DNA of 50,180 nucleotides from Haloparvum sedimenti (GTDB lineage: Archaea; Halobacteriota; Halobacteria; Halobacteriales; Haloferacaceae). The stretch is taken from positions 1 to 50,180 of the forward strand of contig NZ_LKIR01000004.1 in NCBI RefSeq assembly GCF_001462205.1. The letters run 5' to 3'. Under the pieces are notes generated by a model. It saw nothing but the letters and a program-made list of their open reading frames with translations. It did not search any database and was not told the DNA's origin. Of the stretch, positions 3,109-25,964 are shown one piece after another (position 1 is the first letter of the stretch; each line of letters opens with the position of its first letter). The translations under genes were made by a program, and so were the position numbers.

Positions 3109-3144
3109 GGCGCGGGCGGGTCGCCACGGGGCTACGGTCGCGCG

Positions 3145-3426: not shown

Positions 3427-3507
3427 ACCTGTCCTCTGGTCGGCAACAGATATATTCCTTGTGGCGGGTCGCCGCCGCCTTCCCGGAAGGGCGGACAGAA
3501 AATCCTG

Positions 3508-4776: not shown

Positions 4777-4930
4777 CGTGGCTCACCATGGTCGGGGATT
4801 TCGCCCGGTCGGCCAAAGCCTTTCGCCGAGAGATCGACTGCGGGCGCCAGCGCCACACAAAAGCGTTCGGAACGCGGCGGCGGCCGGCCCCAGCGACAAC
4901 GGTTATGCCACACGCGGCGAATGACGCCGT

Positions 4931-5725: not shown

Positions 5726-5899
5726 ACTGCCGATTTCGTCGTTCGCGGCCATTTATCTACCTCCTGCGGGACCGCCGTAAGTCCCGTCTCCTCGCACTGC
5801 CCGCCGATTCGCTATCGCAGCGACCGATTTATCCGCGCGAAACCGGTGACGCGGCGGGACGACCGCAACCGCTTTTGTCGCCACACGCCAGCACCCGGC

Positions 5900-7559: not shown

Positions 7560-7724
7560 CTACGCGGGGAGCGTGCTGATGCCGTTGATCCGCACGAACC
7601 CGTAGCCGCACTCCGGACAGCGCCACTTCGTCTTCTCGCCGAGGTGGAGGTTCATCGCCGCCGACCGGTAGAACGAGCGCGTTTCCTCGCAGTTGGGACA
7701 GTCGACCTCCGCTTCGAGGCTCAT
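7560..7724 (-). CDS. Small zinc beta-ribbon protein, DUF7838-like
   Basis: A 54-residue protein with two CxxC knuckles: Cys9-Pro-Asn-Cys12 and Cys36-Pro-Glu-Cys39. The segment between them, ETRSFYRSAAMNLHLGEKTK, is followed by WRCPECGYGFVRINGISTLP. Four cysteines in this spacing bind one zinc ion in a rubredoxin-like ribbon. I know similar haloarchaeal mini-proteins as DUF7838; their role is not known to me, although such ribbons often bind nucleic acid or protein partners. A TATA-like TTCAATTT at 7749-7756 lies about 28 bases before the ATG at 7724, so it is probably transcribed alone and leaderless. Confidence 0.82.
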   Translation of the reverse strand: MSLEAEVDCPNCEETRSFYRSAAMNLHLGEKTKWRCPECGYGFVRINGISTLPA

Positions 7725-7910
7725 ACGCGAACGTGGACGCGGCGGGAAATTGAAGATGTTGGTTCGGTTCGGTGCCGGCCGCGTCCCGAAAAGCTGACGA
7801 TCGGCATTCTATAAATCATATATGGCGATACACAATACTCCTATGGCCGTTTTTCTGGAGGGGGGTAGCTCGGTGAGCTCTACGAAGTAAGATCGATGGG
7901 CCGGTCCTCA

Positions 7911-8675: not shown

Positions 8676-8697
8676 ACGAGCCGTACCACGGACACCC

Positions 8698-8819
8698 ACT
8701 TTATCCCGCCGCTCGGCGCGGAGCGGCGATGCGGTCGAACACTCGCATGGTGATTACTCATTCCGAAATATATATGATCTATTCTACGGATCACGCAATC
8801 TCATCGGAATAGTTATATT
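8698..8819. promoter_or_regulatory. Divergent promoter region with inverted repeat
   Basis: The minus-strand TATA box (GGATAAAGTG, 8698-8707) serves the Lrp-TrkA_C gene. The plus-strand TATA-like GTTATATT at 8812-8819 serves the UspA/permease side. Between them is an AT-rich tract with arms ATTCCGA (8760-8766) and TCGGAAT (8804-8810), a perfect 7-base inverted repeat with 37 bases between the arms. The right arm touches the plus-strand TATA box, a place where the Lrp-type protein could act. The link to that protein is inference. Confidence 0.5.
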
Positions 8820-8841
8820 TGTCGTCCCCGACGCTCGCGAC

Positions 8842-8973
8842 ATGAGACGCACCGATGCCAGAGGACGCGACCGGAGGCGTGCGACCACCGTTCCACGTCC
8901 GGATCGCCGGGGTCTCGGTCGTCGCACTCCCCCGGAGGAACAGTCGGGCCGAACCGTCGGAGGGGTGTTCTGA
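8842..8973 (+). CDS. Possible 43-residue leader ORF before uspA
   Basis: An ATG at 8842 lies 23-30 bases after the TATA-like GTTATATT, exactly where a leaderless haloarchaeal gene would start. The frame MRRTDARGRDRRRATTVPRP runs to TGAGGTG, where the TGA at 8971-8973 is one base before the GTG start of the UspA gene. The peptide is very Arg-rich and has no known motif. High-GC DNA produces such frames easily, so it may be untranslated 5' sequence or a leader used for coupling. Confidence 0.3.
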   Translation: MRRTDARGRDRRRATTVPRPDRRGLGRRTPPEEQSGRTVGGVF

Positions 8974-8974
8974 G

Positions 8975-9400
8975 GTGGCTCTTCTCGACCACGTCCTGTT
9001 GCCGGTCGTGACCGAGGCGGACGCGCGGGCGACGTGCGATGCACTCCGTCCGCATCTCGACCGCGTCCAGCGCGTCACCGCCCTTCACGTGATCGAGAAG
9101 GGCGGCGGGACAGTCGACAAGGCGCCGCTGGACAAGCGACGCGAGGACGCGGCCGCGTGTCTGGCGGTCGTCGAGACCCGGCTCGCCGGCGAGGTCCCCG
9201 TGGACACGCGGACGGCGTTCGGAACGGATGTCGTCGAGACCATCTTCGACGAGGCCGCGTCCGTCGGTGCGACCGTGATCGCTGTCCGTCCGCGGGGCGG
9301 GAGCCGACTCGTCCAGTTCATCGCCGGCGACACTGCGATAAAGCTCGTCACGGACCCTGAGGTGCCGGTGATATCGCTTCCGGAGGTCGAGGGGGAATAG
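8975..9400 (+). CDS. Universal stress protein (UspA) family protein
   Basis: A 141-residue UspA-type protein starting at GTG 8975 with ALLDHVLLPVVTEADARATC, a Usp first strand and helix. It ends with VIAVRPRGGSRLVQFIAGDT, then PEVPVISLPEVEGE, where the usual GSxxxxxVxxxSxxPVLVV is altered (GGSRLVQFIAGDTAIKLVTD), so ATP binding through the standard G-2x-G-9x-S/T motif is not assured. GTG is chosen because GGAGGGG at about 8960-8966 is a good ribosome-binding site and Usp homology begins at this codon; an in-frame ATG at 8855 would add 40 unrelated residues. It precedes the permease gene by 48 bases, probably in one operon. Confidence 0.78.
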   Translation: MALLDHVLLPVVTEADARATCDALRPHLDRVQRVTALHVIEKGGGTVDKAPLDKRREDAAACLAVVETRLAGEVPVDTRTAFGTDVVETIFDEAASVGATVIAVRPRGGSRLVQFIAGDTAIKLVTDPEVPVISLPEVEGE

Positions 9401-9448
9401 CGTGTTCCGAACTCGACACCACCACATGTTCGATCCGGAGGGACTCGC

Positions 9449-11665: not shown

Positions 11666-11745
11666 CCGGCGGCCCGGCTCGGGTTCCTCCGGCCGCCCCG
11701 GCCGGCTCCGGTGACTACATGGGGCGCCTCCGCGAGTGAGCGAGC

Positions 11746-12141
11746 ATGACCGCCTTCACGACCGAGATCGGCGTTCGGTTCCGGGACATCGACGCGATGG
11801 GCCACGTCAACAACGCGGTGTACGCCACCTACACGGAGCAGGCGCGGACGGACTACTTCAGGGAGGTGACCGACCGCGGCCTCGACGGGATCCCGAGCGT
11901 GCTGGCGACGCTGTCGGTCGACTTCCGGGCGCCGGTCACGCTGGAGGAGGGGTCGGTGACCGTCTCGCTCGACGTGCCGGAGCTCGGTCGTTCGTCGATT
12001 CCGATGTCCTACGAGATCAGGACGGAGAAGGGCGTCGCGGCGGAGGCCGAGACCGTGCAGGTGATCGTCGACGAGTCCGGCGACTCGATGCCGATCCCCG
12101 ACGATCTCCGGTCGGCGATCGAGGCGTATCACGACCTCTGA
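11746..12141 (+). CDS. Hotdog-fold acyl-CoA thioesterase (4HBT family)
   Basis: A 131-residue protein with the 4-hydroxybenzoyl-CoA thioesterase signature: VRFRDIDAMGHVNNAVYATY followed by TEQARTDYF. Asp in FRDIDAMGHVNN is the usual catalytic residue, and the His-Val-Asn-Asn that follows binds the CoA side. A second strand TLSVDFRAPVTLEEGSVTVS is also typical. It hydrolyses acyl- or aroyl-CoA; the acyl chain cannot be predicted. It follows the permease gene by 80 bases with a weak ribosome-binding region, and converges on the S9 peptidase gene, with only 21 bases between the stops. Confidence 0.9.
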   Translation: MTAFTTEIGVRFRDIDAMGHVNNAVYATYTEQARTDYFREVTDRGLDGIPSVLATLSVDFRAPVTLEEGSVTVSLDVPELGRSSIPMSYEIRTEKGVAAEAETVQVIVDESGDSMPIPDDLRSAIEAYHDL

Positions 12142-12162
12142 ACGGATGGAGGCGGGGACGAC

Positions 12163-14391
12163 CTACGTATCCGCTTCGCTCTCGCCGTCCGCCGTCTCGA
12201 CTGCGGGATCATGGCGCTCGAACCACTCGGTCAGCTCGCGGACGCGGTGAGTCGCGCGCTCGGGGTCGCCGACGTTGTGGTGTTCCTCGGGGTAGACGAC
12301 GAGCCGTGCGGGGACGCCCTGCTTCTTCACGCTCACGTAGAGCTGTTCGGCCTGCGAGGGGGGACAGCGCCAGTCCTTCCCGCCGGCGGTGATCAGGAGG
12401 GGGGTGTCGATCTCGCCCGCGTCCGTGATCGAGGAGTGATCGCGGTAGGCGTCGACGTTCTCCCACGGGAGCCCGAACTCCCACTGGTGCCAGTTGTGGT
12501 TGTCGTCCGTGCCGAACGTGGAGTAGAGGTCGTAGATGCCGTGTTCGGGCGCGGCCGCGGCGAACAGGTCCGTCCGCGTGACGATGTGGGCGGTCGTGAT
12601 CCCGCCGTAGGAGAACCCGGTGACGAACAGCCGGTCGGGGTCGGCGTAGCCGCGGTCGACGAGGTGCTCGACGCCGGAGATCACGTCGTCGGACTCCAGT
12701 TCGCCGCGGGAGCCGTTGAGCGCCTCCGCGAACTCGCTGCCGTAGGAGGTGGAACCGCGGTAGTTGACGCGGATCACGACGTATCCCCGCGAGCACCAGT
12801 AGGCGTGCGGGAAGTGGAACGTCGGCGCGTCGTAGGACATCGGGCCGCCGTGGATCGCCGCGACCGTCGGGGCCGGCTCGGGGTCGTCGGGGTCGAAGTC
12901 GGGCGGTCGGTAGACGACCGCCTCGACCGACTCGCCGTCCGAGTTCTCGAAGGTGATCCGCTCGCTCGTCGGCTGCTCGTGGGCGGTGAGGAACGACTCG
13001 TTGAGCAGCGAGAGCCGCCGGAGGTCCGCCTCCTCGGCATCCGCGAGCGCGTCCGCGTCGACCGCGTACACGTCGGAGCCGCCCTGCGGGCTGGAGAGGG
13101 TACAGGCGACCGTGCCGCCGGTCATGTCGAACCGGCCGAGGGTGCGGTCGCGGCCCTGCGAGTCGAAGACGCGCGTCGGGTCGTCGCGGTCGGCGTGCAA
13201 CTCGACGAGCCGGGTCCAGCCCTCGTCAGCGACCGGGCAGACCAGCGTGTCCGCGTCGCGCCACCGCGGCGCCCCGAACCGTGCGACCGTGCGGTCGAGC
13301 GATCCGGAGACGGAGGTCGGTTCACGGTGGCCGTCGGCCGCGTCAGCGTCGTCCGCGGCGACGTACACCTCCGTCGGCTGGTACCAGTTCGTCGGGTTGC
13401 CGCCGGCGAACGCCACCCGGTCGCCCGAGGGGGACCACTCGGGGCTCGAGCAGCGCAGCGTCCCGTCGGTGAGCCGCCGCCTGTCGGTCCCGTCGGGCGC
13501 GATGGTGTACACGTCGGCGGCGAGGGTGTCGTCGGGGTCGGTCGCCTCGCCCGGCGGGTCCTCCCGGTCGACGGAGACGTACGCGATCCGGTCGTTCGAG
13601 CCCCACGCCGGCTGGAGGCCCATGATCGGCTCCGAGGAGCCCGCGCCGTAGGCGTCGTCGAGTCTGGTCGCCTCGCCGGTCGCGGCGTCGACGACGAACA
13701 GGTAGGTGGTGACGGTGTCGGTGAAGCCCACGCCGTCGAACTTGTGCTGGAGGCGCTCCGTCTCGACCGGACCGCCCTCCTCGCGGGCGTCGAGGTACTC
13801 GCGCTCCTCGTCGGTGGGATCGCGCGCGGAGACAACGATCCGCTCGCCGTCGGGACCCCAGTCGAACTCGCGGACGCCCTCCTCGCGGTCGGTCACCTGC
13901 CGGGCGTCACCGCCGAGCGCGAGGTCGAAGGTCCACACCTGCGGCTTCGGCTCGTCGTCGCCGTTCGGGCCGCCGTTCTCGTCGTCGCCGTTCGGGCCGC
14001 CGTTCTCGTCGTCGTCGTTCTCGTCGTCGTTCTCGTCGTCGTTCTCGTCGCCGTTCGCCTCCTCTTCGGCGTGCTGCTCCTCGTCCGTCATTTCGTCCAC
14101 GTCCTCGCCGCGTCCGCGGCCGCGGTCGAGGTCCGCCTCGCGTGCCGCGAGGAAGGCCAGCCGCTCGCCGTCGGGGGACCACGCGGGGGCGCGAGCGTCC
14201 GACGCACGCGAGAGGCGGTGGGGGTCACGCGAGCCGTCCGCGGGCGCGACGTACAGCGCGCTGTGGCGCTCGTCCGGGTCGGGGTGCATCTCGTCCGCCA
14301 CGAACGCGACGCGCTCGCCGTCCGGCGAGACCGCCACGTCGTTCGGCATGCGGAGGTCGTGGTACGCATCGAGCGGGATGGGGTCGGGCAT
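12163..14391 (-). CDS. S9 family serine peptidase (acylaminoacyl/prolyl-oligopeptidase type)
   Basis: A 742-residue cytoplasmic peptidase. The first ~480 residues form a WD-like beta propeller with repeated SPDGERVAFV, WSPDGERLAFLA and WSPSGDRVAFAGG blades. The C-terminal alpha/beta hydrolase has GPMSYDAPTFHF (oxyanion region), the nucleophile elbow GFSYGG with Ser594, LLITAGGKDWRCPPSQAEQL with Asp673, and EEHHNVG with His704/His705. Such enzymes trim short or N-acylated peptides. Blade 2 carries an acidic tandem-repeat insert around residues 112-146. The ATG at 14391 has a TATA-like CAATTGGG at 14412-14419. No signal peptide is visible. Confidence 0.92.
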   Translation of the reverse strand: MPDPIPLDAYHDLRMPNDVAVSPDGERVAFVADEMHPDPDERHSALYVAPADGSRDPHRLSRASDARAPAWSPDGERLAFLAAREADLDRGRGRGEDVDEMTDEEQHAEEEANGDENDDENDDENDDDENGGPNGDDENGGPNGDDEPKPQVWTFDLALGGDARQVTDREEGVREFDWGPDGERIVVSARDPTDEEREYLDAREEGGPVETERLQHKFDGVGFTDTVTTYLFVVDAATGEATRLDDAYGAGSSEPIMGLQPAWGSNDRIAYVSVDREDPPGEATDPDDTLAADVYTIAPDGTDRRRLTDGTLRCSSPEWSPSGDRVAFAGGNPTNWYQPTEVYVAADDADAADGHREPTSVSGSLDRTVARFGAPRWRDADTLVCPVADEGWTRLVELHADRDDPTRVFDSQGRDRTLGRFDMTGGTVACTLSSPQGGSDVYAVDADALADAEEADLRRLSLLNESFLTAHEQPTSERITFENSDGESVEAVVYRPPDFDPDDPEPAPTVAAIHGGPMSYDAPTFHFPHAYWCSRGYVVIRVNYRGSTSYGSEFAEALNGSRGELESDDVISGVEHLVDRGYADPDRLFVTGFSYGGITTAHIVTRTDLFAAAAPEHGIYDLYSTFGTDDNHNWHQWEFGLPWENVDAYRDHSSITDAGEIDTPLLITAGGKDWRCPPSQAEQLYVSVKKQGVPARLVVYPEEHHNVGDPERATHRVRELTEWFERHDPAVETADGESEADT
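13954..14046 (-). repeat. Tandem repeats encoding acidic linker of the S9 peptidase
   Basis: Two copies of a 27-base unit (13954-13980 and 13981-14007) encode the peptide DENGGPNGD twice. Next to them a 12-base unit GTCGTCGTTCTC occurs about three times (about 14011-14046) and encodes DEND-type repeats. Both keep the reading frame. The protein gains a flexible acidic loop in the propeller. Copy number is likely to vary between strains through slippage. Confidence 0.8.
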
Positions 14392-14525
14392 GGGGCGCCG
14401 TACCCGGGCCGCCCAATTGGGTGTTTGGGTGGCGGAGAGCCGCGTGCGGAGGGGATGACGCGCCTGACTCAGCGTGCGTCCGGCAGCAGTCGGTGGGTCC
14501 CGCTTCGGAACCGTCGAATGATGTC

Positions 14526-14550
14526 AGATATAATATGACGCTGGATATAA
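14526..14550 (+). promoter_or_regulatory. Promoter of the six-gene AAA/HEAT operon
   Basis: Two TATA-like boxes occur, GATATAATATG at 14526-14536 and GGATATAAG at 14542-14550. The second lies 26-34 bases upstream of GTG 14576 and is the better placed for a leaderless transcript from there. This is the only obvious promoter before 25.65 kb. Only 175 bases separate the start codons of the divergent peptidase and this operon. Confidence 0.5.
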
Positions 14551-14575
14551 GTGAGTCCGACCCGGTGTGCGTCGT

Positions 14576-16489
14576 GTGTCATCAGATGACAAAAATCACG
14601 CCCCTGTCAGACGATCGGGTGACGCGTCTGGTCGCGGGGCGGTCCGAGCCGACGGTGGTGTGGATCTGGAGCCGCCTCCAGTCGAGGGGTCTCGGGAGTA
14701 CGCGACCGCGCTGGATCGGCTGACTCGACTGGACCGGCAGCGCAGGTCGGACTCGGAATCGCCGGACCGGCCGGCGGTCGTTCAGGCCGTCGATCGGTTC
14801 CTCCGCGTCGACTATCGTGGCGGTGGCTACGCGTCGGGCCTCGTGGAGGCGGCGAGACTGATCGTCGAGTTCCGCCTCGGGGCCGAGGACCTCCCCGAGG
14901 TCGACGTTCCGCGGAGCCCCCACGACGACCTCCTCGACTGGTGTCTGGCGGCCGGCCGCGACGACGCGTCCGGCGACCTCGATGCGGACCATTTCGAGTT
15001 CTGTATGGGTCGGTCGGAGTGGCGCCGGCTGCTGTTGCGGACGGTGGCGATCCACGGTGCGAGCGCCCCGCTGACCGACGACCAGCTCGTTCGGCTCTCG
15101 ACGCTGGACGTGGAGTCGGTGCCGGTCGTCCCCGTCGCGAGGGCGTTGCGGGAACGCGAGCGGTCCGACGCGGCTGCCGACCTGGTGGCCGAGGCGCTGG
15201 ACGCCGGGCCGTCGCTTCGGACGCCGGTCCCGCTGCTCGCGGTCGCGGACGACCTGGGACTCGAGGGGCGGTTTCGACGACATCTCCGGGGCAGCCTGAA
15301 CCGCTGGGCGCCGGAGCAGGGGGTCGACCGGCTGGAGTCGCTCGTGGAGTTCGGCCGCCGAGCGGAGTGCTACCCGGAGATCGTCCTCGCGGTCGAGCGA
15401 TGGCTCCGCGAGTGCGAACCCGACCCGGCGGCCGACAACGGTCGCCTGATCGCCGCCTCGATCGAGGCGTTGCTGTGCGGGACCGACACCGGCCGCGAGG
15501 ACGCGCTCGAGCTCTACCGGACGTACCTCTTCCCGGCGGCGGAGCTGTTCGACGTCGGTCCGGACCTGTTCGAGGCGGCGGAGGCGGCGGGCCGTCGGGA
15601 GATCGCGACCGACGTGTTGACCGCGTACGACGCCGACACCTACGTTTCCGGCGAGAGCGACCGGGAGACCGGGATGATGGCCGCCAGGGCGGCCGAAACG
15701 GACGAGCGCTGGCACGACGCGTTCGACGTCTGGGCGGCGCTGCTGGAGGACCACCCCGACGCGGACGTGTGCCGAAACGCGGTCGAGAACAGGCTCCGGG
15801 TCGGCGACCTCGAGACCGCCGAGGAGTACGTCGAACGGCTCGAGGAGGAGTTCGGCCAGGAGGTCCGAGCGGCCCGGTTCCTGATGCGGATCGGCAGCCG
15901 ACGCAACAACGCCAGACGGGTGGTCGAGGTCGCGGAGTCCACCGACGGCGTCTTCACCGACGCGTCGGCGGACGGTGCCGAGGCCGTGGCGACGGCGTAC
16001 GTCGAGTCGCTCGCCGGCCTCGGTCGGTGGGAGCGGCTCGAGTCGTTCCTCGAGGACGACGCGGCGCTGTCGAACAGGGACCGCCGGTTCTACGGCCGGC
16101 TGTCGAGGTTGATGCAGTACGTTCAGGAGGACGACGCCGCGGTCGACGGGCAGACCGCGGTCGACGTCACGGAGCGACTGCTGGCGGCGCCCATCGACAC
16201 CTCGGAGCTACAGCTCCTGTTGAACCTCGGCGTCGTGCGGAAGGTGGCGGACCGGGTTCGCACGGAGCACCCGGACCTCGAGGAGCGGCTCGACGTCGTG
16301 GAGGGGCTCGTCGAGATCCTGGTCTCGCTCCACGCCGAGCGGTTCATCGACGAACTGAGCGAGGCCGGCGTCGACACGGATGGCTTCGAACGGAACCTGG
16401 CTGAGTCCGACCTCAGACGGGGCGGACGACAGCTGCTGACGGAGCTCGAACGAGAGGCCCGGCGCGCGGGCATCGCGGAGGCACACTGA
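14576..16489 (+). CDS. Helical-repeat (TPR-like) protein, first gene of AAA/HEAT operon
   Basis: A 637-residue soluble, almost wholly helical protein that I do not recognise. From about residue 60 it shows repeated paired helices, and residues about 370-450 resemble TPR units (AARAAETDERWHDAFDVWAA, then LRVGDLETAEEYVERLEEEF). It lacks membrane segments, Walker motifs and known catalytic signatures. I chose GTG 14576 (reading SSDDKNHAPV) because it lies about 27 bases after the TATA box; GTG 14567 would add three residues. The stop is two bases before the next ATG, so the genes are co-transcribed. A scaffold or cargo-binding role is inferred only from the repeat architecture and the ATPase at the operon end. 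Confidence 0.7.
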   Translation: MSSDDKNHAPVRRSGDASGRGAVRADGGVDLEPPPVEGSREYATALDRLTRLDRQRRSDSESPDRPAVVQAVDRFLRVDYRGGGYASGLVEAARLIVEFRLGAEDLPEVDVPRSPHDDLLDWCLAAGRDDASGDLDADHFEFCMGRSEWRRLLLRTVAIHGASAPLTDDQLVRLSTLDVESVPVVPVARALRERERSDAAADLVAEALDAGPSLRTPVPLLAVADDLGLEGRFRRHLRGSLNRWAPEQGVDRLESLVEFGRRAECYPEIVLAVERWLRECEPDPAADNGRLIAASIEALLCGTDTGREDALELYRTYLFPAAELFDVGPDLFEAAEAAGRREIATDVLTAYDADTYVSGESDRETGMMAARAAETDERWHDAFDVWAALLEDHPDADVCRNAVENRLRVGDLETAEEYVERLEEEFGQEVRAARFLMRIGSRRNNARRVVEVAESTDGVFTDASADGAEAVATAYVESLAGLGRWERLESFLEDDAALSNRDRRFYGRLSRLMQYVQEDDAAVDGQTAVDVTERLLAAPIDTSELQLLLNLGVVRKVADRVRTEHPDLEERLDVVEGLVEILVSLHAERFIDELSEAGVDTDGFERNLAESDLRRGGRQLLTELEREARRAGIAEAH

Positions 16490-16491
16490 TC

Positions 16492-17538
16492 ATGGTAACT
16501 ACTGGAAACCTACTCATCGTCGCATCGATCCTGATCGGAACCGGCGGTCTCGGGGCGGTCCTCTACCGCTCCCAACAGCAGGAGCAGGCACAGCTCGAGT
16601 CCCTCGAGGACGAGATGAAGGGGGCGTTAGACGACAACGCGGACCGCATCGAGGCGTCGGTCGACCAGGCGGTGACCGAGCAGGTCGACAAGCTCGAGGA
16701 GTCCCAACAGGAGCTCAACGAGATCGGCGACGACTTCGAGGCGGTCTTCGACCGGATGGACGAGGCGGTCGGCGGGTTCTCCGCCGCGATCGGCACCGTC
16801 GATGACTTCGAGGGGCTCCGGCAGTGGGGGGAGACGCTCGACGACGCCGCCGAGCCCGTCGAGCGCGTCGCGAACAACGTCGAGACCTGGCGGCAGGAAC
16901 AGCAGCAGCTGCTCGACGAGACGACGGACATCCTCACCGAGTGGGCCGCCCAGCACCGGCGCGTCGAGGAGGTGTACGAGGAGTCCATGGAGGGCCTCGA
17001 GGAGTGGCAGACCGAGCACACGATCACCCAGCGGGAGAACTCCGAGGCGCTCAAGTCCCGCCTGGAGCAGCTCCAGGAGAACTCCGAGGCGATGCGGCGG
17101 ACGGTGGAGCAGCTGAACGAGACCATCCAGAAGGAGGCGGAGACGCGCGAGATGCTCGCGCAGGACGTGCCCGAGACCCTGGCCGGCCTCGAGGAGGTCA
17201 GCGAGACCCTCTCGGACCTGAACCAGCGGCAGTCGCAGGCGATCCAGAAGCTGGACGGCATCGCGACGCCGATGGAGGAGGCGGCCTCCGAGTTCGAGCG
17301 CCAGTCCTCCGAGGTCCTCGACCAGATCCGGCAACAGGCCGAACGGAACCGAACCGTCCAGGACGAGGTCTCGGAGGCGATCCGGAACTCGAACCAGGAC
17401 CTCGCCTCGAGCGTCGACGAGCTGCAGACCACGGTCGCCGAGCTCGAGGCGACCCAGACGCCCGCCGCGCTGGAGTACGCGAAGGTCGCGCTCCTGGCCG
17501 TCACCGCCGCGGGGGTCCTCGCCGTCGCCTTCCTATGA
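16492..17538 (+). CDS. Long coiled-coil protein with a membrane segment at each end
   Basis: A 348-residue protein. Residues about 6-25 (NLLIVASILIGTGGLGAVLY) and 329-348 (YAKVALLAVTAAGVLAVAFL, the very C-terminus) are hydrophobic helices. The roughly 300 residues between are heptad-rich, Glu/Gln-rich coiled coil (SQQELNEIGDDFEAVFDRMD, RLEQLQENSEAMRRTVEQLN). No HAMP or chemoreceptor tip motif is visible. Two spans place the whole coil on one side of the membrane. The Arg just after the first span and the Lys before the second suggest the cytoplasm. It could tether the soluble scaffold proteins of the operon. Its TGA overlaps the next start by four bases (ATGA). Confidence 0.78.
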   Translation: MVTTGNLLIVASILIGTGGLGAVLYRSQQQEQAQLESLEDEMKGALDDNADRIEASVDQAVTEQVDKLEESQQELNEIGDDFEAVFDRMDEAVGGFSAAIGTVDDFEGLRQWGETLDDAAEPVERVANNVETWRQEQQQLLDETTDILTEWAAQHRRVEEVYEESMEGLEEWQTEHTITQRENSEALKSRLEQLQENSEAMRRTVEQLNETIQKEAETREMLAQDVPETLAGLEEVSETLSDLNQRQSQAIQKLDGIATPMEEAASEFERQSSEVLDQIRQQAERNRTVQDEVSEAIRNSNQDLASSVDELQTTVAELEATQTPAALEYAKVALLAVTAAGVLAVAFL

Positions 17539-20345
17539 GCGACCGAGGGCAGGCCGACCCGGGACAGCTGGAGCGGTTCCTCTCGAACCGCGAGGGGGAG
17601 TCGGGGGTCAACCCCGGGGAGCTCCGGCCGCGGCACCTCGTGGCGGTGGCGACGACGACCGATGACGGCCTCGCGTCGCTCGACGAGGAGTTCGACTGGG
17701 CGGGGCTGCTGGAGGCGCTGTCGGAACTGGAAGCCGACGAGCAGTCCCGGTGGCTGCGACGGCTCGTCAGGAACCTGGGCACGCGGACCGCGGCGGGGAT
17801 CGAGTCCGAGGAGGGCGTCCGCGCGCTCGGCGACCGGGCGTACGGGCTCCGCCACCGGAACCCCGAGGTGTTCATCTCGTTCCTGGACGAGGTCCAGTCG
17901 CTGCTGCGGTACGACACCTCCTCCAAGGGCATCTCGGCCGCCGAAGAGGAGTTCCGGCGACTCGCGGAGATCGGGGACCGCCGGTCCGACGAACGCGTCG
18001 CGGCGTTCCGCGAACGGGACATCCAGCAGCGGCTCGTCGACCCGAACCTCGGCGCGGACTCGCGGATCTCGCTGCTGCGGACGCTCGGTGACGAACCGCT
18101 CGCGGACGTTCCGACGCGGATGGTCGTCGACGTCCTCTATCCGCTTCGGAACCACTACGACGCGGCGGTCGAGAAGGCGGCGCTCGACACCTACGAGAAG
18201 TGGGCGAAACAGCTCGACGACCGGCGCACGGCGGAGGAAGCCATCGAACTGCTCGAGGACGACCTCGCCGGCGACCTCGACGAGCTGCCGCCCTCGATGG
18301 TCACGGGCATCGTGATGTCCGGGTACGTCGGTCCCGCCATCGTCGAGTGGCTGCGTGAGCTGCCGCGCATCGAGAGCCGGCAGGAGGTCGTGGTCTCGGC
18401 CTTCGAGACGCTGGAGCACGTCTCCGGCCTCCGTGGCTGCGCGGACGACATCTGCTCGTTCCTCCTCCGGGACGCTCACGAGGACGAGACGGTGCACGCG
18501 GGCATCGACGTCCTCGAGTCGGTCCTCGTCGGCTTGGAGCCCCGGCAGGAGACGGAGACTCCGGCTCAGACCGACCACATGCGGGGCGTGTTCTTCACCG
18601 AGGCGGAGCTCGGCGTCGACGAGACGGTCCGGTCCACGCTGCAGACGATCGTCGAGTCCTCCTCCTACTCCGAGGCCGTCAGCGCGCACGCGGCGAGCGC
18701 GTGGCTCTCGGTTCGGCCGCCCGAGATCCAGCGGCTCCTGTGGGAGATCGATGTCGAGGACGTCGGGGAAAGCGCCGTCGCCGACGCCAAACTCGAGGCC
18801 GCGGCCGACCACCGGCTCGTCGAGTTCGTCGACGTCGCGGCCGACCTCTGGGACGCCGCCGAGGGCGACGCGGACAAACGGCTCCGGCTCGTCGACGCGC
18901 TGGACCGGCTCGAGTCGCGGGAGATCGTGGATGTCCTGCTGGACCCGGCGTTCGACGCGGACGACGAGGAACTACGACGTGCGGCCCGTGAGACGCTCGT
19001 CGACGCCGGCTACGAGTCGGAGGTCGAGCGCGAGTCACAGCGCCGCACCACCGCCGACCGGATCGAGACCCGCTTCGACGCGATGTCCACGGCGACGGAC
19101 ATCGACCGCGAGATACGCGACCGGACCGAGGAGCGAACGTCGACGGAGGACGAGCGAAAGCGGGCCGGACTGGAGGCGGCCGAGGCCGCGTCGAAGAGCG
19201 TCGACAACCTGTCGACGTTCCGGTCGCAGGGGGCGACGCGGATGCTGAAGCTGGCGCCGCTGTTCGACCGGCTGAAGGAGCTCGAGGAAGCGATCCGCGA
19301 GCTCGTCGGCCGGATCGACTCCCTCCGTGGCGAGGTGCAGACGGAGCGTGACGAGGCGAAACGGATCGAGCGCGAGATCACGTCGGTCGAGAGCGACATC
19401 GACGCGGCTGAGGGGGACTTGGACAGCGCGCGACGGGAGAAGGATGACGTCGAAAACCGGATTCAGGAGCTGCAACACGACATAATCCCCAGTCTGGAAC
19501 AGGAGGTCGGGTCGCTCCAGCGGGAGTTCCGACAGCTGGACGGCAAGGAGCCGTCACCGCGGGACTTTTCCGGGGAGAACTGGCGGGAGCAGTACGAGCG
19601 GAGACACGACGAGTGGGAACGGAAGATGGGCGAGATCAACCGGGAGATCGAGAAGCTGGAGGGGAAGCAGAACGACGCCGAGACGGAGCTCTCGAACCGG
19701 AAATCCGACCTGCGGCGGCTGAACGGCGACATTTCGGACCTCGAGGACGAGCTGCGACGGCTCCGCGATGACCATCGGGGCCTCGAGAGCGACCTCGAGG
19801 AATCGCTCCAGCGAATCGACGGGTACCGGCGCGAACTCGAGGAGCGACAGTCGGAGCTCCGCGAGATCAGGGAGGAGTACGACCGCGTCCAGGCGCGGGT
19901 CGACGACATCGTCGGCGAGTTAAACGGCGTGCGACAGTCCGCCCGGTCGCGGGAGGCCACGCTGCAGGAGCGGGGCGAGACGGCTCGGTCGCGCGCCGAC
20001 TCGCTCCGGGGGACGCTCCGGTCCCTCGCCGAGACGCAGTCCGAGGCGGTCGACCGGCGAGCGCGCCAGGCCGAGCACGTCAGGGAGCTCGCGGCTCGGC
20101 TCGACGCCGACCACGACGACCTTGCGGACCTCGGCGAGCGGACGAGGGCGGAGGTCCCGGAGGCCGACGTGGCGGCGGTCGAGTCGGCGGAGCGAGCGCG
20201 GAAACACCAGTACCGCCGCAACGAGACCGCGTGGCGGCTGGACAGCGTCTTCAGACGGGCCGTCGAGGCGGACAGGGTCGCGGATGTCGACCCCGAACTG
20301 GCGGACCGCGCCGCCGAGCGAGTCGAGGGCGGTGAGGAGCGATGA
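17535..20345 (+). CDS. HEAT-like solenoid plus long coiled coil, paralogue A
   Basis: A 936-residue protein. Residues about 1-500 are paired helices of HEAT/ARM type, including LLRTLGDEPLADVPTRMVVD and VLYPLRNHYDAAVEKAALDT. Residues about 550-905 are long coiled coil (RLKELEEAIRELVGRIDSLR, EREITSVESDIDAAEGDLDS), SMC-like in feel but without ATPase heads or a hinge. The transition AARETLVDAGYESEVERESQ is closely matched in the protein at 20947-23613. I start at the ATG in ATGA at 17535, overlapping the previous stop; the same frame is open far upstream, but that part is antisense-like filler inside the previous gene. No enzyme motif is seen, and a structural role is inferred. Confidence 0.78.
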   Translation: MSDRGQADPGQLERFLSNREGESGVNPGELRPRHLVAVATTTDDGLASLDEEFDWAGLLEALSELEADEQSRWLRRLVRNLGTRTAAGIESEEGVRALGDRAYGLRHRNPEVFISFLDEVQSLLRYDTSSKGISAAEEEFRRLAEIGDRRSDERVAAFRERDIQQRLVDPNLGADSRISLLRTLGDEPLADVPTRMVVDVLYPLRNHYDAAVEKAALDTYEKWAKQLDDRRTAEEAIELLEDDLAGDLDELPPSMVTGIVMSGYVGPAIVEWLRELPRIESRQEVVVSAFETLEHVSGLRGCADDICSFLLRDAHEDETVHAGIDVLESVLVGLEPRQETETPAQTDHMRGVFFTEAELGVDETVRSTLQTIVESSSYSEAVSAHAASAWLSVRPPEIQRLLWEIDVEDVGESAVADAKLEAAADHRLVEFVDVAADLWDAAEGDADKRLRLVDALDRLESREIVDVLLDPAFDADDEELRRAARETLVDAGYESEVERESQRRTTADRIETRFDAMSTATDIDREIRDRTEERTSTEDERKRAGLEAAEAASKSVDNLSTFRSQGATRMLKLAPLFDRLKELEEAIRELVGRIDSLRGEVQTERDEAKRIEREITSVESDIDAAEGDLDSARREKDDVENRIQELQHDIIPSLEQEVGSLQREFRQLDGKEPSPRDFSGENWREQYERRHDEWERKMGEINREIEKLEGKQNDAETELSNRKSDLRRLNGDISDLEDELRRLRDDHRGLESDLEESLQRIDGYRRELEERQSELREIREEYDRVQARVDDIVGELNGVRQSARSREATLQERGETARSRADSLRGTLRSLAETQSEAVDRRARQAEHVRELAARLDADHDDLADLGERTRAEVPEADVAAVESAERARKHQYRRNETAWRLDSVFRRAVEADRVADVDPELADRAAERVEGGEER

Positions 20346-20950
20346 GGCAGCGCCCCCGCCGCGCCGGCGACGCGGAGCGGAACCGGTCGAACTGGGACGA
20401 GCTGTTGAACGGGACGGAGAGCCTTCTGAACGACTCGAAGTCGCTCCAGCGGGAGATCGAGGGGTCGACGGACCGCATCGAGGAGACCTGGGAGGGAACC
20501 GCGGCCGACGTCGAGGAGACCCGGAGCGATGTCGCGCGGACGACGGACAGACAGGAGTCGGCACGGGGGGCCGAGGCCGACTTCGACGCCGGCGAGGCGG
20601 CCGGACCGCCGCCGGCCGTCTCGGAAGGTGAGTCGGTCCACGGCGACCCCGACCTCCCGGCGCGAAACGACTACCACCTCTCCGACCCCGTGACCGTCGA
20701 CGAGGCCGACGAAGCGGTCGGGGAGGCCGAACAGCAGTCGGCGGTCGAGCCCGAGACGCCGGTCCCGTACACCGAGAAGGGCTGGTTCGAGCTTCACTCT
20801 GACCGCTTCCCGATCGGCGAGGACGTCTTCCCGGTCGGCTTCCGCGAGGGGGCGCCCGAGGCGGCGGCCGACGACGAGGAGCGCCCGGCGGAACGCGAGC
20901 CAGCCGATCGCCGGCAGCGCGACGAGAAGAACAGGGAGGGGGACACATGA
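20342..20950 (+). CDS. Small acidic adaptor-like protein
   Basis: A 202-residue protein. Residues about 15-65 make one amphipathic coil (ELLNGTESLLNDSKSLQREI followed by EGSTDRIEETW). A disordered acidic middle follows, then a short conserved-looking block EKGWFELHSDRFPIGEDVFP (about residues 148-167), and a charged tail. No known domain. It overlaps both neighbours by ATGA, between the two HEAT/coiled-coil paralogues, so stoichiometric production with them is likely. The aromatic block resembles a binding peptide for a partner, possibly the ATPase; that is a guess. Confidence 0.7.
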   Translation: MRQRPRRAGDAERNRSNWDELLNGTESLLNDSKSLQREIEGSTDRIEETWEGTAADVEETRSDVARTTDRQESARGAEADFDAGEAAGPPPAVSEGESVHGDPDLPARNDYHLSDPVTVDEADEAVGEAEQQSAVEPETPVPYTEKGWFELHSDRFPIGEDVFPVGFREGAPEAAADDEERPAEREPADRRQRDEKNREGDT

Positions 20951-23613
20951 GCGGCGCGTCGGCGGTGTCGTCCGCCGTTCGCCGGCTCAGTGCGGGACGG
21001 GGGGACGCGGCACAGCGGAACGCGGACGCGCAGACGCTGGCGGACGCGCCGCCGGGAGACCGGCGCGTCACGCGCGCGCTGGTGTTGGGGCTCTGGGACG
21101 ACGACCGGGACGTTCGCCGGCTCTGCAAGCGCACCCTCCGGCGCCGGTTCCGGGAGATGCGCGCCGACGACCGGCGACTGCTTCTGGAGGTCCTCTTCGT
21201 GAACCTCGCGGGAGCGTCCGATCCGCCGAGACAGGCCGTGAGCTTTCTGTCCGCGGTCGTCGGCTGGGTGCGGAACCACCGGTCGTCCGAGCCGCACCTG
21301 TTCTCGGCGATCGTCGCCGAGGCCGAGCGCTCCCGGCGCGGCGGGAGCTATCCCCCTCGCGTCAGGAACGCCCTCAAGGACCTCTACCGGAGCGCCCCGA
21401 CCGACGACTCGCCGACGGCGGATGTCGTCACGAACTTCAACCAGCAGCGGTCCCTGAACCAGCTGCTCTCGGAGACGGCGCCGCCGGAGGAGGTCAAGAG
21501 CTCGCTCCGGCTGCTCGGCGACGGGTCGCTCTCGGAGACCGACTTCGATGTCCTGCTGTACCACCTGGTTCCGCTGCGGAACAGCAAGGACCAGTCGGTG
21601 ATGATGACGGCGCTGCGGAACCTGAAGGCGTGGTCGGCGGAGCTTCCGGGCGACGACGAGTTCGCGCTGACCGAGGCGGTCGAGGCGCTCGACGCCTACC
21701 AGCGCGCCGACCGCGAACAGCTCCCCGGCCGGCTCCGGAACGAGATCGCCCTCTCGGAGGTCGCGGTGGAGGCGCTCGGACGGGAAGTCGACCGGTTGCG
21801 CGACCTCCCCCAGTACCGACAGTCGATCGAACACGTCATCGAGACCCTCGACGGCGTCACCGGCGTCCGAGCGGTGGTCGACGTGCTGATCGATGTCGCC
21901 GCGGAGGAGACGGGTCCCGAACGGCAGGAGGCGGTCCGCGCGCTCTGTTCGGTCCTCACCGGCCTCGACGCGGAGATCGAGGAGCGGCCGGACGTTCGCT
22001 ACCGCGACCGCGTCCGGTACGTCACCGACGACGAGGTGGCGGCGACGGACGCGGAGATACGGGCGCTCTTCCAGGAGATCGGCGAGGGCGGGACGGCCGA
22101 CGAGGCGACCGTCTCCACCGCCGTGGCGGAGCTGATACGGTCCCGGCCGGAGGACCTCGCGGAGCGGCTGACGACGCTTCTGGCCGACCGTGAGCCCGAC
22201 GATCCGGTCGTCGAGGCCGCGCTGGATGCGGTCTCGGACGAGGTGATCCTCGCGGCGGCCGACCCGGTCGCCGAGGTGGCCGCGGACGCCGGCGAAAGCG
22301 ACCCGGCGGGAGCGCGGGAAGCGGTCGCGGCGCTGGAGACGCTCGGCCACGACGAGGCGCGCGAACACCTCTCGCAGCTGATGCGTGACGCGTCCAACCC
22401 CCTCGGGTCGGCGGCCAGGGACGCGCTCGTGCGAAGCGGGTACTACCAAACCGTTCGCGCGCGGGAGACGGCCGACCGAGCGCGCGCTCGGGCGAGCGAG
22501 AGCGAACGCCGGGCCGACCAGCGGGAGCGCCGCGAGGCCGACCGGCGCGAGGAGCGAGTCCAGTACAAACGGCGGGAGGCCGAGTTCCGCCGACAGCTGC
22601 TGTCAGCCGGCCGGACGCTCAGGGACGGCCTGATCGAGGTCCTGGAGCGCCGGATCGACTCCCTGGACACGCTCGTCGAACTCCAGCAGGAGGACCGTCG
22701 GGTCCAACGCCTCGTGGAGGAGGCGCCCAGCTACCACCAGCAGCTGGGTGCGTATCTGCGTCGCCTGGACCTCGGGACCGACGTGGAGGCGGGGATCGCG
22801 GAGGAGCTCGCGTGGATCGAGCGGAACGTCGCGTATCTGGAGCGGCTGGCCGAGGCCGACGACCGGCGCGCGTCCGCGCTCGACGACCGGTTATCCGAGG
22901 TCGACGAGGAGCTGTCCTCGCTGGAGGCGATCGACGCGCCGGATCGGGACCAGCGGACGCGGACCGAGCTCCTCGAGGCGGAACGCGAGTCGCTCCGGGA
23001 GATTTGCGAGGGGTATCGGACGGACGCTCGGGAGGGAGAGCAGACGGCCGCGGACCTGCGACAGCGTCTGGAGCGGAAGCGCGCGAACCTGGAGGACGCC
23101 TCGGTCGCCGTCTCGGGGTCGTTCTCGGACATCGAGGGCGCGATCGCGTTCGCGCAACAGCGCGAGCAGCGCATCGGCGCGCTCACCGACCGACGGGAGT
23201 CCGAGTGGGAGCGCGTGCTGGACGCGGCCCGCGAGCGCGAGTCCGACCTCGAGGACCGTCTGTCGACGCTCCGGTCGACCGTCGAGGAGCTGGAGTCGAT
23301 CCAGCGGTCCATCGACGGGACGACGAAGGCGATCGGCGACGACAGGCTGGCCCAACAACACCGCTCCCAGCAAAGCCGCGAGGACCAGGCGGTGCTGGGC
23401 CGGATCGAACCACGCGCCCGCGGAGCGGCCCAACAGCGACACGACGCGGCGGTCGCGGAGTCGGAGTTCCACAGACACCACGAGGAGTACCTGGCGTTCA
23501 TCAGGCGGTACTACGAGTCGCGGCTCGACGCCGTCGGGTCCGGGCGGTTCGCGGACCAGTACGCCGACTCGATACGGGAGATCGAGGCCGACGTGGAGGA
23601 GTACTATGAGTGA
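20947..23613 (+). CDS. HEAT-like solenoid plus coiled coil, paralogue B
   Basis: An 888-residue protein with the same plan as the protein at 17535-20345. A helical solenoid spans residues about 1-500, with SLRLLGDGSLSETDFDVLLY and HLVPLRNSKDQSVMMTALRN aligning to LLRTLGDEPL and VLYPLRNHYDAAVEKAALDT in its partner at nearly the same position. At about residue 489 AARDALVRSGYYQTVRARET matches the partner's transition into the coil. Residues about 500-880 are charged coiled coil (ASESERRADQRERREADRRE, RLSEVDEELSSLEAIDAPDR). No nucleotide-binding or membrane motif. The ATPase gene begins inside its last codons, an 8-base overlap. Probably arose by duplication and pairs with paralogue A. Confidence 0.78.
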   Translation: MSGASAVSSAVRRLSAGRGDAAQRNADAQTLADAPPGDRRVTRALVLGLWDDDRDVRRLCKRTLRRRFREMRADDRRLLLEVLFVNLAGASDPPRQAVSFLSAVVGWVRNHRSSEPHLFSAIVAEAERSRRGGSYPPRVRNALKDLYRSAPTDDSPTADVVTNFNQQRSLNQLLSETAPPEEVKSSLRLLGDGSLSETDFDVLLYHLVPLRNSKDQSVMMTALRNLKAWSAELPGDDEFALTEAVEALDAYQRADREQLPGRLRNEIALSEVAVEALGREVDRLRDLPQYRQSIEHVIETLDGVTGVRAVVDVLIDVAAEETGPERQEAVRALCSVLTGLDAEIEERPDVRYRDRVRYVTDDEVAATDAEIRALFQEIGEGGTADEATVSTAVAELIRSRPEDLAERLTTLLADREPDDPVVEAALDAVSDEVILAAADPVAEVAADAGESDPAGAREAVAALETLGHDEAREHLSQLMRDASNPLGSAARDALVRSGYYQTVRARETADRARARASESERRADQRERREADRREERVQYKRREAEFRRQLLSAGRTLRDGLIEVLERRIDSLDTLVELQQEDRRVQRLVEEAPSYHQQLGAYLRRLDLGTDVEAGIAEELAWIERNVAYLERLAEADDRRASALDDRLSEVDEELSSLEAIDAPDRDQRTRTELLEAERESLREICEGYRTDAREGEQTAADLRQRLERKRANLEDASVAVSGSFSDIEGAIAFAQQREQRIGALTDRRESEWERVLDAARERESDLEDRLSTLRSTVEELESIQRSIDGTTKAIGDDRLAQQHRSQQSREDQAVLGRIEPRARGAAQQRHDAAVAESEFHRHHEEYLAFIRRYYESRLDAVGSGRFADQYADSIREIEADVEEYYE

Positions 23614-25654
23614 GCCCGCCGACGGCGTCGAGTTTTCCGCCCTCCCCGACTGGGCGGAGCGCTTCGTTCGGGATCTGGACGATCGGTTCGGCGTTCTCTC
23701 GGGCGACCGCGCCGAGGAGAACTTCCCGCGGGGGGAGGCCCCGCCCTGGCTCCGCGGCGATCACGACGGGGGCGACGGGAGCCCGCCCGACTGGCTGGAC
23801 AGCTTCCTCATGGACGGGAACCCCGACCTCCAGCGGCTGTGGATGGACGAGGGGTTCCTGGGAACCGACCCCGAGTGGCTGGCCGAACTCCACCAACACG
23901 AGCGGGCGGACGTCGCCCGCGTGTTCATGCTCGTCGGCAACGTCCACGACTACGCGTTCTCTCCGCACCGCGGGTTCACGCCGGTCATCGACCGGCTGGA
24001 GCGGAGCGCGGCCGCGCGGAAGGACTGGGTCGTTCGCTACTCCCTCTCGAACGGCTTCTCCGACCCGATCAGGGGCGACGGGACGCCGGCCGACGACCCG
24101 ACGCCGTTCGAGGTGCTGGAGGAGGAGGACGACCTCGACCTCCGGGACGGGAGAGCCCGGAGCGCGCAGGAGGCGCTCGACCGCGACCTGCAGGTCATCG
24201 AGCGGCTGCTCGGGGCGGGCTACGACGGCGGCGTCTCGGTCATCGTGGACAACCTGCAGCTGCTGGTCCCGCCCGACTCCACGAACGTCAACCGGAACGT
24301 CCTGACGGACGCGATACAGCGGTGGGCGCAATCCCCGGAGATGTTCCGGAGCGAGAACCAGGTGGTCCTGTTGGCCGACGGGACCGACTCCCTCAACGAC
24401 GACCTCCGGTCCGGAACCAGCCACGTCGACACGATCGAGGTCCCGCGTCCCGAGACGGCCGAAGCCCGGCTGAAGTTCCTGACGACGCTCTTCACGGGGT
24501 CGCGCGTCGACCACATGCCCGGCGTGCGCATCGACGCGGCCGCCGAACCGGTCCGGTTCAGCGACGAGTTCGGCGACCGCATCGACGAGAAGCTCGCGAC
24601 GCTGGCGAACAGGACGTCGGGCCTCGACAGGGTCGGCCTCGAGAACCTCGTCTTACAGGCCCGATCCGAACGGGACGGGGAGCTGACGATGGAGTACGTG
24701 ACGGAGGCGAAGCGGGACCTGCTCTCCGAGGAGAGCGGGGGGCTGTTGCAGGTCACGGAGCCCGACCCGTCGACGGACCCGCAGGAGGCGTTCGCGGCCG
24801 TCGGCGGGCTGGAGCCGGTCCGCCGGAAGCTGCTGACGATCTCCGAGCTGCTGGACGAGGCCGGCGACTCCGAGATGGTCCGGCGCTCGCTCCCGAACGG
24901 TCTGCTGTTCCTGGGTCCGCCCGGCACCGGGAAGACGATGGTCGCCCGCGCGTTCGCGAACGCCTGCGGCGTCAACTTCGCCGAGTTCGGCGACATCCGT
25001 TCGATGTGGGTCGGCGAGTCCGAGCGGAACCTCTCGCGGGCGCTGGAGCTGATCCGCTCGCTGAAGCCGGTCGTCGTGTTCATGGACGAGATCGACCAGA
25101 GCCTCGGCCAGCGCGGGGACGGGACCGGCAGCGGCGTCGACCAGCGCCTGTTCGCGCGCATCCTGCAGTTCATGTCCGACCCGGAGCTGGAGGGCGAGGT
25201 GATCTGGATCGGCGCCAGCAACGAGCCGCACAAGATCGATCCCGCCCTCAAGCGGGCCGGGCGGTTCGACCTGACGATCCCGTTCCTCCGCCCGGACGCC
25301 GAGGCGCGGCGCGCCATCCTGGAGGTGAACTTCGGGCGGCGGGAGGCGACGCCGGCGCTCGAGGAGCGCGACTGGGCGGAGCTCGTGGAGCGAACCGAGG
25401 GGTACACCGGCGCCGAGCTGGAGCGGGTCGCCAAGGAGGCCGTCTGGAACCACCTGGCCGCGAACGGCACCGACGAGGGGTCGACGATCCCCGCGACCGC
25501 GGTCCTCGACGCGCTCGAGACGTACCAGCCGCCCGCGAACCGGTCCGAGTACCGCCGGATGGAGGACGAGGCCCTGGAGGAGGTGACCGCGGTCGACCTC
25601 CTTCCGGACAGGTACAAGGAGCGTCGACGCGAGCTGGGCGGCGGAGAGCCCTGA
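23606..25654 (+). CDS. AAA+ ATPase with degenerate N-terminal AAA-like domain
   Basis: A 682-residue ATPase. The C-terminal module is a classical AAA domain: Walker A GPPGTGKT (residues 437-444), pore-type segment DIRSMWVGESERNLSRAL, Walker B VVFMDEID (Asp494, Glu495), sensor 1 GASNEP with Asn539, and KRAGRFD with Arg553 as arginine-finger region, then a helical lid (EGYTGAELERVAKEAVWNHL). The N-terminal half has VFMLVGNVHDYAF and a Walker-B-like strand VSVIVDNLQLL (around Asp215) but no P-loop, so it looks like a second AAA fold that has lost ATP binding, a layout also seen in Ycf46-like proteins. As the only enzyme of the operon it probably remodels the HEAT/coiled-coil assembly. Confidence 0.85.
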   Translation: MSEPADGVEFSALPDWAERFVRDLDDRFGVLSGDRAEENFPRGEAPPWLRGDHDGGDGSPPDWLDSFLMDGNPDLQRLWMDEGFLGTDPEWLAELHQHERADVARVFMLVGNVHDYAFSPHRGFTPVIDRLERSAAARKDWVVRYSLSNGFSDPIRGDGTPADDPTPFEVLEEEDDLDLRDGRARSAQEALDRDLQVIERLLGAGYDGGVSVIVDNLQLLVPPDSTNVNRNVLTDAIQRWAQSPEMFRSENQVVLLADGTDSLNDDLRSGTSHVDTIEVPRPETAEARLKFLTTLFTGSRVDHMPGVRIDAAAEPVRFSDEFGDRIDEKLATLANRTSGLDRVGLENLVLQARSERDGELTMEYVTEAKRDLLSEESGGLLQVTEPDPSTDPQEAFAAVGGLEPVRRKLLTISELLDEAGDSEMVRRSLPNGLLFLGPPGTGKTMVARAFANACGVNFAEFGDIRSMWVGESERNLSRALELIRSLKPVVVFMDEIDQSLGQRGDGTGSGVDQRLFARILQFMSDPELEGEVIWIGASNEPHKIDPALKRAGRFDLTIPFLRPDAEARRAILEVNFGRREATPALEERDWAELVERTEGYTGAELERVAKEAVWNHLAANGTDEGSTIPATAVLDALETYQPPANRSEYRRMEDEALEEVTAVDLLPDRYKERRRELGGGEP

Positions 25655-25724
25655 CGGCACTAGGTTCGTCCCGTCGGTCGCGCCCGTGGCCAACCTTCAT
25701 GCCGACGCTGGCCCAACGTCAGGC

Positions 25725-25964
25725 ATGGCGATCACTCTGTACGCGCTGGACGGCTGTCCCTGGTGCGAGAAGGTCCACGACGCGCTCGAGGCGGCGGGCG
25801 TCGACTACGACACCGAGTGGGTCGAGGCGCTTCACTCCGAGCGCGACGAGGTCCGCCGCGTGAGCGGGCAGCGGGGCGTGCCGGTTCTCGTGGACGGCGA
25901 CCGCGGCGTGACGATGTGCGAGAGCGCCAACATCGTGGAGTACGTGGAGCGCACGCTGGCATGA
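25725..25964 (+). CDS. Glutaredoxin-like thiol-disulfide oxidoreductase
   Basis: A 79-residue thioredoxin-fold protein with the active site Cys11-Pro-Trp-Cys14 in YALDGCPWCEKV. The cis-Pro region GVPVLVDGD and a C-terminal TMCESANIVEYVERTLA (glutathione-transferase-like end) are also present. Haloarchaea use gamma-glutamylcysteine or other thiols rather than glutathione, so the true reductant is open. The ATG at 25725 is chosen because the preceding in-frame codons do not belong to the fold. It overlaps the adenosyltransferase gene by ATGA and lies 70 bases after the AAA gene. Confidence 0.9.
   Translation: MAITLYALDGCPWCEKVHDALEAAGVDYDTEWVEALHSERDEVRRVSGQRGVPVLVDGDRGVTMCESANIVEYVERTLA

Follow-up and report, generated by a model that had tools for sequence, protein, structure and literature searches.

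What six adjoining genes for an AAA+ protein, a membrane-anchored coiled coil, and four further proteins accomplish together in a haloarchaeon is the question raised by this locus. The genes lie in a 50,180-nucleotide stretch of DNA from Haloparvum sedimenti, the whole of which is referred to below as the window.

The six-gene operon and its conservation

Our analyses place six ORFs head to tail on the + strand, in the interval 14576–25654 of the window (Table 1). ORF1 and ORF2 are separated by a 2-nt gap and the later junctions overlap by 4, 4, 4, and 8 bases; the overlaps of four to eight bases described earlier for this cluster thus hold at four of the five junctions and fail at the first. 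Gene calling by codon usage returned the same six ORFs, with ORF1 shortened to 14660. ORF1 has a GTG start, a further in-frame GTG lies upstream of it at 14567, and the gene is probably leaderless. The TATA-like element GATATAAGTGAG and the 32-nt spacing between this 12-mer and the ORF1 start are identical in the window and in Halorubrum sp. GN11, and the DNA around the element upstream of ORF1 has otherwise diverged between the two (sequences compared by eye). This identity supports a single putative promoter for all six genes.

The genome of Halorubrum sp. GN11 (G133; L013/L014, equivalent to L019) keeps all six genes in order. Conservation relative to the window is highest for ORF2 and, after it, for ORF6 (Table 1). 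In a second Halorubrum carrier, H. californiense (L018), ORF4 to ORF6 can be seen before the contig ends, as can ORF3 at its 3' end. The dN/dS values between GN11 and H. californiense are 0.33 for ORF4, 0.17 for ORF5, and 0.11 for ORF6, which marks these three as selected proteins; the window compared with GN11 has a dS of 0.8–0.9 and yields less reliable dN/dS values of 0.27–0.77. Because the full order is kept in GN11 and the dN/dS of ORF4 to ORF6 is 0.11–0.33, the ORFs are regarded as genes and not as chance open frames, and their interpretation from sequence as a co-transcribed unit with conserved order is supported. Accordingly, the six ORFs of the preliminary description are real and located where it had placed them, its single promoter is borne out by the shared element, and the conservation of gene order that it had named as a check is found complete in GN11 and, for the part of the cluster on the contig, in H. 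californiense.

Table 1. Positions and characteristics of the operon features in the window, with amino acid (aa) identities to Halorubrum sp. GN11
Feature	Position	Strand	Identity to GN11 (%)	Basis and remarks
TATA-like promoter element (putative), GATATAAGTGAG	14544..14555	+		Same 12-mer in GN11 at L019:938-949, start 970
ORF1, 637 aa, all-helical, probably TPR/HEAT-type repeats	14576..16489	+	42	Ortholog in GN11; sub-threshold TPR match
ORF2, 348 aa, membrane-anchored coiled coil	16492..17538	+	69	Hydrophobic ends in both species
ORF2 N-terminal membrane span (predicted), about residues 2-24	16495..16563	+		Kyte-Doolittle 19-residue windows; conserved in GN11
ORF2 C-terminal membrane span (predicted), about residues 327-347	17470..17532	+		Kyte-Doolittle maximum 2.23 (window), 2.18 (GN11)
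ORF3, 936 aa, HEAT-like N-terminal half and long coiled coil, ORF5 paralogue	17535..20345	+	51	hhalign; coiled-coil matches 570-900
ORF4, 202 aa, small acidic protein	20342..20950	+	36	Fastest diverging
ORF5, 888 aa, HEAT/ARM solenoid (1-495), then long helices 499-660 and 667-862	20947..23613	+	46	AF2, Foldseek
ORF6, 682 aa, two-domain AAA+ ATPase, p97/Cdc48-like ring architecture (predicted)	23606..25654	+	61	PF00004 E 4e-32; Foldseek
ORF6 D1, degenerate AAA domain, residues 90-376	23873..24733	+		AF2 secondary structure; 11-row alignment
ORF6 D2, AAA domain, predicted active, residues 396-640	24791..25525	+		Motifs in window protein, largely conserved in alignment

The AAA protein and its partners

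The sequence and model of ORF6 characterise its product as p97-like, with an inactive first AAA domain (D1) and a second one (D2) that is predicted to be active and to bear a pore loop. D1 has GNVHDYAF at the P-loop position and VIVDN at the Walker B position, and D2 carries GPPGTGKT, FMDEID, the arginine fingers of RAGRFD, and the pore-loop motif MWVGE (W/Y-V-G). The AF2 model, of moderate confidence (mean pLDDT 64; 6-row alignment), contains two AAA domains, and Foldseek aligns it with p97 over about 645 columns covering both of them (E 3e-18). The family search found no MIT domain in ORF6, the N terminus of which (residues 1–88) is modelled with low confidence. No protease motif is present, and the HbYX tail for docking to the proteasome is missing from the C terminus, RRRELGGGEP; the product is therefore predicted from its sequence to be a pure unfoldase. 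An identity as FtsH or PAN was rejected on the same two grounds and on that of the degenerate D1.

The partners are less readily assigned. ORF1 has no Pfam match, and its best indication of a fold is a HemY-type TPR match of E 1.3e-3, below the cutoff. ORF2 encodes an acidic, cysteine-free coil between two hydrophobic end segments, in the window and in GN11, and its database matches are of the coiled-coil type only. The N-terminal halves of ORF3 and ORF5 align with each other by hhalign with a probability of 99.1% (E 5e-19). The AF2 model of ORF5 has a mean pLDDT of 73 (six-row alignment including paralogues), and its best Foldseek matches are PP2A-A HEAT and armadillo proteins, with E values of 1e-5 to 1e-6. 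ORF4 has no family match, and a role for it as an adaptor is a guess. ORF1, ORF3, ORF4, and ORF5 all diverge quickly and belong to no known family. Thus, the two-part AAA+ protein, the coil with a membrane span at both ends, and the pair of HEAT-coiled-coil paralogues that had been read from the sequence are corroborated (viz. by the AF2 model, Foldseek, and alignment; by hydrophobic segments in two species; and by hhalign together with the solenoid and long helices of ORF5, respectively), and the TPR-like nature of ORF1 is weakly supported by its sub-threshold match.

Matches of the coiled-coil proteins to SMC, Rad50, ZorA, Mce4, and EzrA were rejected, all being below curated cutoffs and typical of coiled-coil background. 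A PspA profile run against the operon gave coiled-coil-level scores only (best E 0.005), Pfam reported no PF04012 in ORF1 to ORF5, and sequence search found no protein of the Snf7/PspA fold in the operon.

Distribution in haloarchaea and relatives in bacteria

Orthologues of ORF6 are present in 3 of 171 genomes of the family and in 2 of 145 genomes sampled from the class, and the degenerate D1 occurs in a single one of 295 genomes of the phylum, that of the window itself (the two Halorubrum carriers lie outside this last sample). The insertion sites also differ. The copies of GN11 and H. californiense both come after one and the same gene pair, read from sequence as DabA/DabB-type, and lie about 6–8 kb from a glutaredoxin-like/cobalamin adenosyltransferase-like pair. 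The window copy occupies a different spot, directly between an S9-peptidase-like gene and the glutaredoxin-like/cobalamin adenosyltransferase-like pair. Cluster-free versions of both settings exist in relatives: G006 has that of the Halorubrum type and G026 that of the window type, with the S9-like gene followed by a 331-aa gene and then by the glutaredoxin-like/adenosyltransferase-like pair. The patchy presence and these cluster-free settings mark the cluster as an accessory module within a region that varies between genomes.

The GC content is 0.705 in the cluster and 0.689 in the window. From equal base composition the preliminary description had concluded that the cluster was probably long resident in the lineage, a conclusion that is not supported, given the rarity of the cluster in the family and of D1 in the phylum, the empty sites in relatives, and the differing insertion spots. 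Since the GC is equal, base composition cannot detect transfer between haloarchaea, and the value is compatible with such transfer or with loss in most lineages. A mobile-element reading was rejected: no phage, viral-contig, or plasmid homologues of the parts tested were found, and no flanking repeats surround the cluster. More generally, the region upstream of the glutaredoxin-like/adenosyltransferase-like pair (window 11746–25964 and loci L125–L131) is different in almost all of the haloarchaeal genomes that were read, which suggests a variable region in which accessory genes settle.

Outside the haloarchaea, a D1 profile of 9 rows, among them the window D1 and bacterial rows, finds members in 75 of 284 bacterial genomes from the phylum of the bacterial relative G145. 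The E value is 2e-94 for window ORF6 and about 1e-46 to 1e-20 for pspA-adjacent bacterial genes, and the profile recovers pspA-linked genes that are absent from its rows. We read 63 loci of the family. In the sister clade, 14 of the 17 loci with a callable AAA gene have a PspA_IM30 gene in the same orientation no more than 5 kb upstream, several of them at less than 150 bp; three of these PspA_IM30 genes were checked by Pfam (E 3e-21, 6e-19, and 1e-11) and the others by means of a profile made from five of them. Some of the pspA-AAA operons also carry an ABC transporter and a substrate-binding/OmpA protein. This very set, in which proteins with two AAA domains, the N-terminal copy inactive, are encoded beside PspA, has been described independently, with a proposed function in ATP-dependent membrane remodelling (Ravi et al., 2024, PMC11237479). 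The motor family is already known from gene context.

The other clade (L109, L110, and L175–L212, e.g., L175, L187, and L212) shows a near-fixed position of the double AAA gene 50–500 bp upstream of rplU, where the loci read also have rpmA and obgE; membrane remodelling does not explain this context. Since many family members are solo genes near rplU, the client of the AAA protein need not be a membrane polymer.

One bacterial locus resembles the haloarchaeal operon more closely. In L021, from a Proteobacteria MAG (SXON01000006), a helical-repeat gene is followed by genes for a 215-aa TM-coil, an 895-aa helical/coil (HEAT-like) protein, and a 298-aa coil, and then by an AAA gene whose product is 33% identical to ORF6; a radical SAM gene overlaps the AAA gene by 4 bases, after which come an opposite-strand gene and a Tubulin_2 gene. 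In an ML tree the L021 AAA protein groups with the three haloarchaeal ones with support of 99/98 (97/98 after removal of two other long rows), a grouping that is suggestive but not secure because of its long branch, which may reflect a long-branch effect. This genome has a second, ordinary member of the family, which falls in the other clade (L173). Comparison of ORF1 to ORF5 with the L021 partners by hhalign, using shallow profiles, gave nothing significant, and the resemblance is one of order, size, and fold class only. A layout of this type is absent from all other bacterial loci read. The Clostridiales (L020), Yanofskybacteria (L022), and Paenibacillus/Aneurinibacillus plasmid (L015–L017) loci were rejected as full systems, having the AAA gene without the partners.

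Several further arrangements were observed near relatives of D1. The look-alike cluster of L021 is followed (12189–20618, also L111) by genes for a secreted protein with a MIDAS-like DRSGS stretch (read by hand; no Pfam match), for the Tubulin_2 (FtsZl1) protein, and for two large proteins that are uncharacterised, of which one has a P-loop-like motif. The genome of the window has a Tubulin_2 family protein on another contig (G000:C26:9639-9824, L099; open frame of 1267 aa), and none scored above the cutoff in the two Halorubrum carriers; Tubulin_2 was rejected as part of the haloarchaeal system, being unlinked to the cluster in all three haloarchaea. In L169 (G164:C79:7500-27000; 2101–11804) the same degenerate D1 has a second domain of the ClpA/B type (AAA_2) attached to it. 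The gene for this protein is overlapped by a radical SAM gene (NrdG-like) and preceded by genes for proteins of 281 aa and 868 aa and for an SF1 helicase; it seems to belong to another system that makes use of this D1. In L172 (6798–10089) a 275-aa D1-like protein directly precedes an 823-aa AAA protein carrying a further D1.

Function and comparison with known systems

The best reading of the operon, to which we assign a probability of about 0.5, is that it encodes an ATP-driven machine that remodels a membrane scaffold, acting like Vps4 on a different polymer. The ATP-driven scaffold at the membrane that had been proposed for this cluster is thereby retained, and the co-transcribed unit, the AAA motor, and the membrane-anchored coiled-coil/HEAT partners on which it draws are supported. 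Anchored through its two ends, ORF2 would make up a membrane-bound coiled-coil layer, upon which ORF3 and ORF5, with their HEAT solenoids and coiled-coil tails, may assemble together with ORF1 and ORF4 as scaffold and adaptors. ORF6 would form a hexameric double ring, in which the inactive D1 ring could serve docking and assembly and the D2 ring would thread a partner (ORF2, ORF3, or ORF5) through its aromatic pore loop, so that the scaffold is disassembled or re-set. The physiological purpose may be envelope maintenance or spatial organisation. This remodelling reading is supported by the p97 match across both rings and the catalytic and pore motifs of D2, by the conservation of ORF2 and ORF6 as the best conserved pair, and by the pspA genes beside bacterial relatives, the proposal made for those relatives (PMC11237479), and the L021 layout. 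It is weakened by the absence of a PspA/Snf7 homologue from the operon, the hhalign result for the L021 partners, the moderate confidence of the AAA model, the long branch of L021, and the solo family members near rplU.

The main rival is a role in conflict or defence, which is prompted by the patchy distribution and by a resemblance to the FtsH ternary systems, where a double AAA protein with an inactive first and an active second domain is accompanied by unique proteins of alpha-helical build and by a radical SAM enzyme (Kaur et al., 2020, PMC7159879). The operon would then be a haloarchaeal derivative of these systems, its double AAA protein controlling how a large helical complex that responds to infection is assembled and taken apart, and either it would retain no recognisable effector or ORF4 or ORF2 would be a membrane-acting one. 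By comparison with the published description, ORF6 has the double AAA with the first domain inactive, ORF1 to ORF5 would correspond to the several unique alpha-helical proteins, and L021 has the radical SAM gene adjoining its AAA gene; patchy distribution and a variable insertion region are moreover typical of defence genes. However, Pfam finds neither MoxR nor vWA in the window operon, which for this reason is not an FtsH ternary system though its AAA protein fits the description, and no MoxR-type P-loop lies near L021. No FtsH ternary effectors (viz. NEFF1, radical SAM plus peptide, or a Ubl system) or ubiquitin-like conjugation genes were found in the operon, nor any toxin, nuclease, TIR, caspase, or other effector, and the neighbours are housekeeping genes. 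PADLOC returns generic AAA (IetA) and coiled-coil models only and no described defence protein set, and the search of phages, viral contigs, and plasmids bears against this reading as well. We consider it unlikely.

An improbable alternative is that ORF6 is an assembly chaperone or part of a polar scaffold, a dedicated unfoldase that builds or localises one specific membrane complex or surface appendage and remodels no membrane, the HEAT/coil proteins serving as cytoskeleton or structural spacer. Spacers are commonly made of long coiled coils and HEAT solenoids, and L021 adjoins a Tubulin_2/FtsZl1 gene and the MIDAS-like secreted protein, a setting akin to the Tubulin_2/FtsZl1-vWA neighbourhoods for which a multicomponent membrane complex has been proposed (Makarova and Koonin, 2010, PMC2875224). 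In the three haloarchaea, by contrast, there is no such linkage to Tubulin_2, and no appendage, secretion, or surface gene is linked to the cluster at either haloarchaeal site. That the genes are unrelated and merely co-transcribed, sharing no machine, accords with the quick divergence of four of them, but is very hard to reconcile with an order and orientation that remain complete at 36–69% identity in different flanking DNA behind the same promoter element, and with a similar layout in one bacterium; we give it very little weight.

If the scaffold reading is true, AAA-driven membrane scaffolds gain one more type, and one that was transferred between domains. A bolder version, tentative and rather doubtful, makes the operon an archaeal machine for membrane remodelling or organisation that was shared by transfer between bacteria and haloarchaea; in it, a p97-like motor whose first ring is inactive would work on a membrane-anchored coiled-coil/HEAT scaffold with no relation to ESCRT-III, dynamin, or the tubulin/actin families. 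The operon may give cells a means, not studied so far, of reshaping or maintaining their membrane, the bacterial relatives of its motor being found next to membrane-remodelling genes. The combination of the motor with the five partners, its haloarchaeal presence, and the same layout in a bacterium were absent from the main text of the open-access literature searched.

The preliminary description could match the cluster to no described system. This is still the case for ORF1 to ORF5, but ORF6 fits both the PspA-partner family (PMC11237479) and the double AAA protein described for FtsH ternary systems (PMC7159879). With p97/Cdc48 (VCP) it shares two stacked AAA domains, and its D2 is closest to p97 by sequence and fold; it differs in that D1 has lost the nucleotide site, no p97 N domain is found by family search, and outside D2 the sequence similarity is only weak. 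Archaeal/eukaryotic ESCRT-III/Vps4 (Cdv) has in common with the operon a classical-clade AAA protein, an aromatic pore loop, membrane-associated coiled-coil partners, and the action proposed here. However, ORF6 has two AAA domains instead of one, and since PspA/Snf7-fold proteins and MIT-type domains are absent from the operon by family search, it is proposed to act like a Vps4 system rather than to be one. The PspA-associated double-AAA proteins share the AAA architecture, with homology detectable through the degenerate D1, and likewise have the AAA gene at the operon 3' end with a gene for a membrane-associated coiled-coil protein. They differ in that the present operon has a haloarchaeal host and no pspA or snf7, its partners being instead a TM-anchored coil, two HEAT-coil paralogues, a repeat protein, and a small acidic protein; the claim is hence limited to homology of the AAA protein and does not place the operon among PSP systems. 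On gene context alone, the double-AAA family has been put forward as a bacterial counterpart of Vps4, and the present operon offers the same motor with a self-contained, non-PspA partner set in a culturable and genetically approachable group, so that what double-AAA motors pull on becomes testable in a small system.
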